From Strigops habroptila (Eukaryota; Chordata; Aves; Psittaciformes; Psittacidae): DNA of 64,000 nt. The notes under the pieces are model-generated. The model was not told where the DNA came from. It was given only the letters and a program-made list of their open reading frames with translations, and searched no databases. Both the position numbers and the translations under genes were made by a program. Location: NCBI RefSeq assembly GCF_004027225.2, contig NC_044278.2, positions 9,300,001 through 9,364,000 on the forward strand, written 5' to 3'. This document shows positions 41,101 through 44,100 of the stretch, one piece after another. Positions within the stretch are counted from its first letter, which is position 1; each line of letters starts with the position of its first letter.

Positions 41101-44100
41101 TGCTCAGCCATCACAACCTTTGTAAAAGTACACATTCCTTTGATGGAAAAGCTGAAGCTGTAGAGGGAAGCTTTTATGGTGAAGGGTGGCTGAAGTCTTG
41201 TGGCAAAATGTGGCAAGGCTCATCCTGCCCATGAATTTGTTAGTATTGAAAGGCTTTTAGAGCTGGGAAGGGGGTTAGCTGGGAAAGGTGGCTCTGCATG
41301 CTGCGTGTGGAGACTGAAATATGAAGGATGTCACATGGAAAAACATGGGACGTGATTGTTTTGCCTTCAGCAAAGTTTCAGTGCCTTATGGGTGTGAGTT
41401 GGGGGTTTTTTTGTGTAAATTAGGTTATAAATGTATTTATTTCACTTTGACTTCAGAAGTTTCAAAGACCTTATTCTAAATGTTTCCCCAAACCTGATGC
41501 AGCACTCCTGATCCATAAAATGAATTGGAGGTTTATTTAGATCCTTACAGTGAGATGTCCCCATCCTGACAGAGGAAGGGGGAAGCAGGGGGGAGGGAAA
41601 GGGCAGGCTTGCCCTTAGCGTGTCCCTTGCTGCCTGGAATGAGGAAGCTCAAAGGTGGGAGAGAACAAGTTGAGTTGGAGAGGGGAAGCAAGCAGACGTG
41701 CTCTGCATTCTTCTAGAGGTGCAATCTTTCATTCCAGCAGCTTACTCTCAGTGAGGCTGCTGTGTGGAAGGTGAGGGCTTCCCGATCCCAAAGGTGTCTG
41801 CATACCATTCAAAGCCAATGGCCCACCAGGCTGGCTGCAGGATGTGCCGTTCTGGCTAGTAGCTGGCGTGTCTCCTCCTCTGATGCAGTGCATCTCTTTG
41901 GGATGTGGCAGGGTCTGTGTTCCTGCAGCACCTGCTGGGATGTTGGGGCTCCCAAGCTCAGAAGTAAAACTGTCAGTCTGATAGCATAATAGCTTAGGAG
42001 CTGATAGCTCACAGCCTTTGTTGGAAGAGAAGGAACCAGAAGCAAGCTCTACACGTGGCTGGCAGGCCTTTCCACGTGTCAAGCTCATGAGCCTGCCAGG
42101 GCCTGAAGACTTGTGCCTTCCCTTGTGGGGCAGTACTATTCCTTGTGCAATGCCGCTGCCTTTGCGGATGTGGAAATCTCAGGCTTAGAGGCACATCTTT
42201 AAGAAGATTCCCATCCATTTGACGAAGCAGAGCGTAGTTCTGGCTGCAGCTTACCCTGGCATCCTGACAGTCTCTTACACCCTGCACATGAAAAGACAGT
42301 AATGCTATTAAGGCAGCCTAATTTGTTGGCAGCTTTTGTATTTGATAATGAAGCAGCCAGGAAGGAAAAAAATCTTGCTGTAATCTCTCTTATACAGAGT
42401 GGGGAGGCTCACCTTCAAAACCAGGATTTTTGTCGCTGGGCATAGTCAACAAGGCAAATTACAGTTCTAATCCCAATTTGGGAGCTAGTATCTCCCTTGA
42501 GTCACATCCTCCATTTCAGGGCTGTCAAAGTGTGAAGTGTTTAGCCTCTTCAGAAGCTGCCTGTGTGAATGCTTGTCCTTCCCGCTGCCGTGTGAACTTC
42601 AGGCTTCTGTCCTGGAATGTGCTTTGTGCTTTTTAGGAAAGAAATCAAAGAGTTGCCCTTGCATGAGCAGAACAATTTTAAGCATGTCCTGCAACTGATT
42701 GGCCTTAACCACTGCCAGTTGAGAGTGGGGGCTTTCAGAGCACTTAGTCAGAAAAGCAGCTCTTGGTGGTTTGGATGCAGTCCTAGACTTCTCCATTTTC
42801 CCCTCTGGGTAGAGCCACCTCTAGCTAGATAGAAGGGTTGGTAGACCTACGGGGCAGCATTATTTTGCCTCTTTCTGCTTGAATAGCTGTGAAGCTTCAT
42901 GGGGGAGCTGCAGAACCTACTACTGTATTTTAAGGTCACTAGTTAAGGTCTTGTAGTAGGCAGCTCTGTCACTTAAGTGGGTGTTACAGAGCAGATTGCA
43001 GCTTCCCTGTTGCTGTACCTGTGTAGGATCTGTTAACAGCAACAGAAGCTGTAAGGCAGGTGCTGCTCAGAGTGCCATGAGAAGCTACTACACACATAGA
43101 CCCCAACCTACCCCACTGCAGGAATGCTGCTGCTCTGACAGCATCTGCCCTTCTGGGAAAGCCTATGCTTTATCTAAAGGTGACCCTGCTGGCCCTGCAT
43201 CCTGTTTTTCTTCCCTGCGTGTAACTGTCTGGAGTTTGGCTTTTGTTCATTCATCTCCATGTCTCATGATGTTCTTGTGTTTGTCTTTCTCCTCTTTCCA
43301 ACTCCTCCCTTCTTGTGCGCTTGCACTGTCTTGTTGCTGAAATGTGGTATGTTCCAGCTGCCCTTGCCTTCAAACTGAAAACATATATAATGGGTGGTAA
43401 GTTGCATCCTTGGCATGTGCACCTCACCTCTGCCTTTGTGTACATGTCATCCCAACTAACTTCCCTCGTCCATGTGGCAAAGCCCCCTCTCTAAGCCCGT
43501 GCTGCCTAGCAGGGTTTCTACCAGAGCTCCTGAGGACCGGGGAAGGGTTTATAGCTTCAGCTGGGAAGGCTGGAGCCACAGAGCACTTGGCAGATGCTGT
43601 GGGGCGCTGGTCTGTCCCAGCCCCATTCCTGTGGCAGTAACACCACCTTTTGGGTTGTCCTTGCCTCTCCAAGGCCCAGGGAACAACGCGGCGGGGCAGT
43701 CCCGTGCCATGATCGCGGCCGCGGCCCGTCGCAGGGACTCCAGTCACAACGAGCTCTACTACGAAGAGGCTGATCACGAGCGGCGAGTGAGAAAGCGCCG
43801 CGCAAGGTAAAGCCATCCCCTCCTGCAAGGCTCTGCCCCATGGGGATTGCCAAGCCCCACAGAGGAGCCTCTGATTTAAGGGGCTGGGGGTTGGCTGTAA
43901 ATCTGTCACAGCAAAGAAGCGTATGAAATCCAGATGCATAAGGGATGGTGACGGTTTGTAACTGGGATTATCTGAAGAACATGCATAAAGCAGAGCTCGT
44001 GTATATTATGCAGATAAGCTAATGCAATGTCATGGATTAGGGAACAGTCCAGTGCTTGACAAATCTGTGGTTTCTTGCTGTAGGAAATCCCATTGTTTTC

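Follow-up and report, generated by a model that had tools for sequence, protein, structure and literature searches.

Cryptic or pseudo exons occur in vertebrate introns, and regulated microexons have been described in several classes with characteristic intronic surroundings. For eMIC-dependent exons, PMC8797185 describes a long AG exclusion zone, UGC motifs near the acceptor, a longer UC-containing tract upstream and a weak 3' splice site region. This architecture is stated there for flies, and mammals are said to share all of it except the strong downstream branch point and the weak donor. According to PMC4317164, alternative micro-exons carry less T immediately upstream and more T beyond 20 nt. 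Among the proteins concerned here, PMC11065751 presents VANGL2-Long as a conserved translational isoform. An initial annotation of the present locus had regarded it as novel that a core polarity protein should have a regulated isoform, which is too strong in view of this published form (PMC11065751).

VANGL1 and the segment in its fifth intron

The plus-strand gene in the window (the whole 64-kb stretch of DNA analysed here, contig C2, 9300001-9364000) is VANGL1. Its seven coding exons (Table 1) are spliced into a 522-residue protein, in which the portion encoded by exon 4 has a Pfam match to Strabismus, and the PDB chains 8zxd, 9jk6 and 9jk7, all VANGL structures, match by sequence. The labels exon 5 and intron 5 presuppose one non-coding first exon; in this numbering, intron 5 measures 3345 nt and has phase 1 (GAT G / GC CCA).

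Table 1. Positions of VANGL1 exons and of sequence features in introns 4 and 5, numbered within the window
Feature	Position	Strand	Remarks
VANGL1 coding exons	17071-17141, 19154-19280, 21984-22591, 40195-40328, 43674-43806, 45777-46011, 46872-47135	+	last range extends 3 bases beyond the stop
Look-alike in intron 4	37487-37526	+	40 nt, frame-breaking; separate from the candidate
Coding exon 5	40195-40328	+	phase 1 end (...KVYNVD + G); donor ATG/GTAGGT
AG-free tract	43235-43355	+	AG-to-AG gap 123 nt; UC-rich stretch CTTTCTCCTCTTTCC
Three yTnAy branch-point-like sites	43246-43267	+	A at 43249, 43253, 43266
Three TGC (UGC) motifs	43316-43337	+	starts 43316, 43322, 43335
Candidate microexon	43358-43396	+	39 nt, phase 1-1, would encode 13 residues
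GTAAGT donor of the candidate	43397-43402	+	
GCATG	43413-43417	+	begins at base 17 after the candidate
Coding exon 6	43674-43806	+	277 nt downstream of the candidate

Other parts of the window hold features of their own. A calsequestrin C-terminal coding stretch (Pfam PF01216; 62401-62781, minus strand) ends in a very long aspartate run and is probably, as we assume, CASQ2, convergent to VANGL1. Open stretches on the plus strand (7373-7861, 11604-12026, 11996-12277, 18624-18944 and 31744-32247) encode peptides such as RHWNRLPR and LRKLGxFSLEKR, which we take to be typical of CR1 LINE tails; a Pfam scan of two of them, 7373-7861 and 18624-18944, gave no match. At gathering thresholds, Rfam returned 0 matches in the window.

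The segment under study, CTGCCCTTGCCTTCAAACTGAAAACATATATAATGGGTG, stands between TTCCAG and GTAAGT. It had been put forward as a candidate in-frame microexon, and on re-reading of the sequence the 39-nt stop-free segment with its AG acceptor and GTAAGT donor proved exact. The claim of a length divisible by three and of a phase equal to that of the host intron also holds: the spliced VANGL1 frame has 522 aa without the candidate and 535 aa with it, and no stop appears in the host frame. The insertion point lies between the residues matching D315 and G316 of Vang-like protein 1 (PDB 8zxd, presumably the human protein). Its assignment to the intron 5 junction stands, whereas its description as lying next to M328 is loose, M328 being situated 12 residues downstream of D315/G316.

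Splice sites were scored with matrices built from vertebrate splice-site frequencies, the scores being relative only. On this scale the candidate donor (5.4) exceeds the donors of exon 5 (3.7) and exon 6 (3.5), and the candidate acceptor is weak (-1.9 versus 5.8 for exon 5 and 3.7 for exon 6). At a donor score of at least 3 and an acceptor score of at least -3, intron 5 offers besides the candidate only a 15-nt pair (40729-40743) with an AG gap of 24, a third pair from the same scan falling within exon 5. In the 1.15-Gb assembly, the 186-nt candidate region matches one place only, which rules out a recent repeat origin; old decayed repeats could still fit. A 23-base pattern scan of a viral contig collection gave 0 matches, and an exon-7 protein scan of microbial genome contigs gave 70 pattern matches of which none was confirmed, both as expected for such collections.

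Upstream of the acceptor, the roughly 120 bases without AG and the three UGC motifs within about 42 bases were found as described earlier: the preceding AG is located at 43233-43234, and the TGC motifs stand at -42, -36 and -23 from the exon start. Pyrimidines make up 71% of the 122 nt from 43236 to 43357. The branch-point-like adenines lie at -109, -105 and -92 within TTCAT, TTCAT and CTCAT, none of them in a CTAAC or CTGAC, and by eye a TGCTGAA places a further A at -18. The T content is low directly upstream of the candidate and higher farther away. Downstream of the donor follows GCATG, which we take to be an RBFOX-type motif; it is weak evidence for regulation because about 6% of 60-nt stretches (1648/26,274) contain one.

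Chance expectation of the layout

The background comprised the window, 20 sampled 10-kb stretches of contig C2 and two stretches near VANGL2, on both strands and with the candidate excluded; its match is imperfect, the G+C content of the sampled C2 stretches being 0.40 versus 0.48 for the window. Segments of 3-51 nt that keep the frame, contain no stop and equal or exceed the candidate in both splice scores number 23 in 567,998 strand bases (about 40 per Mb). When intron 5 was shuffled 2000 times with its dinucleotides preserved, 345 of the shuffles contained a segment comparable in splice sites, frame and length. Given these two frequencies, little weight can be put on the exon-like pair by itself.

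The unusual part of the candidate is its AG-free tract. Among 10,161 background acceptor AGs scoring at least as high as the candidate, itself excluded, eight have an AG gap of at least 123 and 31 a gap of at least 100. At least three TGC within the last 42 nt are more common (534/10,161), and the combination with a gap of at least 123 occurs in a single background acceptor, namely 37487 in VANGL1 intron 4. None of the 2000 intron 5 shuffles yielded a candidate with a gap of at least 100, and two yielded one with a gap of at least 80 plus at least one TGC. Such rarity of the tract argues against a merely accidental exon-like pair.

For the full layout (donor and frame, a gap of at least 100 and no fewer than two TGC), extrapolation to the genome gives about 0.017 per Mb of strand; with the sense intron taken to total 450 Mb, about eight copies would arise by chance. 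This projection is based on four background acceptors and carries several-fold uncertainty. With laxer bounds (gap of at least 60, at least one TGC) the projection rises to about 276 chance copies in the same assumed 450 Mb. As to real exons, PMC4317164 counts 159 RBFOX-regulated and 113 PTBP1-regulated human micro-exons, and in PMC12626420 the microexons reported as conserved from mouse to zebrafish number 95, of which 42 show the canonical layout of UGC and UC repeats. We take chance and real occurrences of the layout to be of about the same order of magnitude, and therefore the layout alone cannot decide.

Local look-alike, paralogue and control exons

The one background acceptor with a comparable layout belongs to an exon-like segment in the same gene. 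The look-alike in intron 4 has an AG gap of 130, three TGC and an acceptor score of 4.0, stronger than that of the candidate, and its donor (AGG/GTGAGG, 5.0) scores slightly below the candidate's; its surroundings are single copy, with one genome match. Since the only other acceptor combining a gap of at least 123 with at least three TGC is found in intron 4 of VANGL1 itself, the acceptor layout cannot be called rare in these surroundings. Unless the segment at 37487 is also a regulated exon, a look-alike about as good as the candidate has arisen by chance within VANGL1. Taken by itself, this segment is either a chance control or possibly a poison exon, and it serves as a ready-made negative control.

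Long AG-free stretches recur on the plus strand of the window, where eight AGs, the candidate's among them, have a gap of at least 100. Donors scoring above 2 within 200 nt were sought for five of the remaining seven, among them 37487; of these five, 37487 and 62523 alone have one, and the donor after 62523 would give 106 nt. These stretches bear on a reading in which no exon is made and the pyrimidine tract itself is functional, for example as a PTBP1-type silencer or as a decoy acceptor tuning exon 6. The 71% pyrimidine content over 122 nt, at 319-439 nt upstream of exon 6, would suit such a role, yet the seven other plus-strand AGs of the window also end AG-free stretches with gaps of at least 100, and we consider this reading very improbable.

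VANGL2 provides a second point of comparison. The paralogue, on contig C23, is compact, with exons 5-8 in about 2 kb, and its intron of the same position and phase 1 has 371 nt, versus 3345 nt in VANGL1. In this intron no exon-like pair reaches scores comparable to those of the candidate, which rules out a conserved ohnologue microexon at such scores; at very relaxed scores one 18-nt pair appears (acceptor -1.9, donor 0.5, AG gap 94, no TGC). Vang-like protein 2 (9jk7) departs at the insertion site from the sequence of Vang-like protein 1 and has two more residues there.

We infer that 43358-43396 is most likely a pseudoexon, unused or barely used. By chance, a weak AG at the end of a long stretch of intron 5, rich in pyrimidines and devoid of AG, would have come to be paired with a consensus GTAAGT. 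Splicing in most or all tissues would then excise the whole intron (40329-43673) at once, with the candidate segment skipped or included as noise only, and PTBP1 or U2AF may bind the tract to no effect. This reading is favoured because the splice-site, frame and length features are frequent by chance, both in shuffles and per Mb of strand, because about eight copies of the full layout are expected by chance, because intron 4 contains a look-alike that shares the acceptor layout and would break the frame, and because intron 5 of VANGL2 is without a comparable candidate. It is also favoured because the literature search linked no VANGL1 event to microexons: none of the main texts searched names VANGL1 together with a microexon or VANGL together with a micro-exon, and publications naming both VANGL1 and SRRM4, judged by listing, include none about VANGL1 splicing. 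This silence is weak evidence, as an event may go unnamed in main texts. The weights given to the three readings are judgements from the counts, not computed posteriors.

Against the pseudoexon stands, besides the rarity of the tract, the fact that most layout features testable in the sequence favour a regulated microexon. A real in-frame microexon, regulated in birds or in a bird subgroup, is in our judgement rather unlikely, and its mechanism would be as follows. SRRM3/SRRM4 on the UGC motifs would aid U2AF and a distant branch site (about -92 to -109) in defining the weak acceptor, RBFOX would assist from the downstream GCAUG, and PTBP1 would repress outside neurons. Inclusion would add 13 residues after KVYNVD, in the cytosolic C-terminal region. 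The long AG-free tract, the three UGC, the UC-rich tract, the T gradient and the GCATG are as in PMC8797185 and PMC4317164. The genome contains two matches above cut-off to the eMIC domain SRRM_C (PF15230), so that an SRRM3/SRRM4-type regulator should exist. The single-copy candidate region, with no detectable repeat, and an insertion site at which the two paralogues are unlike in both sequence and length also speak for a microexon; a length beyond the 3-30 nt class, the missing comparable counterpart in VANGL2 and the frame-breaking look-alike in intron 4 speak against it.

Positive controls bear on both sides of this question. Twelve loci of this genome were probed with short peptide words in the 1.5 kb upstream, and three known microexons were recovered: MEF2C beta (acceptor 3.5, gap 64, two TGC), an L1-family RSLE exon (acceptor -1.8, gap 46, one TGC) and the 24-nt exon of GABRG2 (acceptor -6.3, gap of at least 44 ending at the locus edge, no TGC). 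Within the same 1.5 kb, SRC N1 (one locus, word KVDV only), KDM1A DTVK (two loci), RSLE in three further loci and the GABRG2 word in three relatives were not found. Because the acceptor of the RSLE-type microexon is equally weak, the weak acceptor of the candidate is no argument against its use. The gaps and TGC motifs of the three controls agree with a microexon, but both controls with complete upstream sequence have shorter gaps than the candidate.

Comparison with described systems

Were the segment included in transcripts, the neural microexon programme would be linked to planar cell polarity, and there would be a VANGL1 form open to study in the inner ear, the retina or axon guidance, as well as an example of a lineage-specific microexon. 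That an eMIC-controlled microexon of the bird lineage inserts 13 residues into a VANGL1 linker, so that neurons or sensory hair cells would have a version of this core PCP protein to themselves, seems doubtful to us. If, as the pseudoexon reading has it, the segment is not included, the locus shows how closely chance intron sequence mimics the SRRM4 layout. The attribution of such a layout to the candidate holds in part: the architecture fits PMC8797185 and PMC4317164, whereas the look-alike in intron 4, the lack of a comparable counterpart in VANGL2 and the 39-nt length speak against it. The layout is weaker evidence than it appears, and the label of candidate is fair.

VANGL2-Long (PMC11065751) is a precedent for a longer VANGL isoform, as the candidate would give, but its extension is N-terminal, arises from an upstream AUA start without splicing and is reported absent from Vangl1. 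With the SRRM3/SRRM4 (eMIC) microexons, as described in PMC8797185, the candidate shares shortness, an open frame, the AG exclusion zone, UGC by a weak acceptor and UC-rich sequence upstream; it differs in being known from sequence alone and in its 39 nt, versus a fly median of 31 nt (PMC8797185) or the 3-30 nt class of PMC12626420, outside which it falls. The RBFOX/PTBP1 micro-exons of PMC4317164 have in common with it the limit of at most 51 nt, inside which it lies, a low T content upstream that rises beyond -20, and a downstream RBFOX-type motif; they differ in being expressed and in having conserved intronic flanks, the candidate being known from one genome. With cryptic or pseudo exons, finally, the segment shares a splice-site-like pair inside a large intron, and from these it is set apart by its UGC motifs and by the uncommon length of the AG-free tract that holds them.
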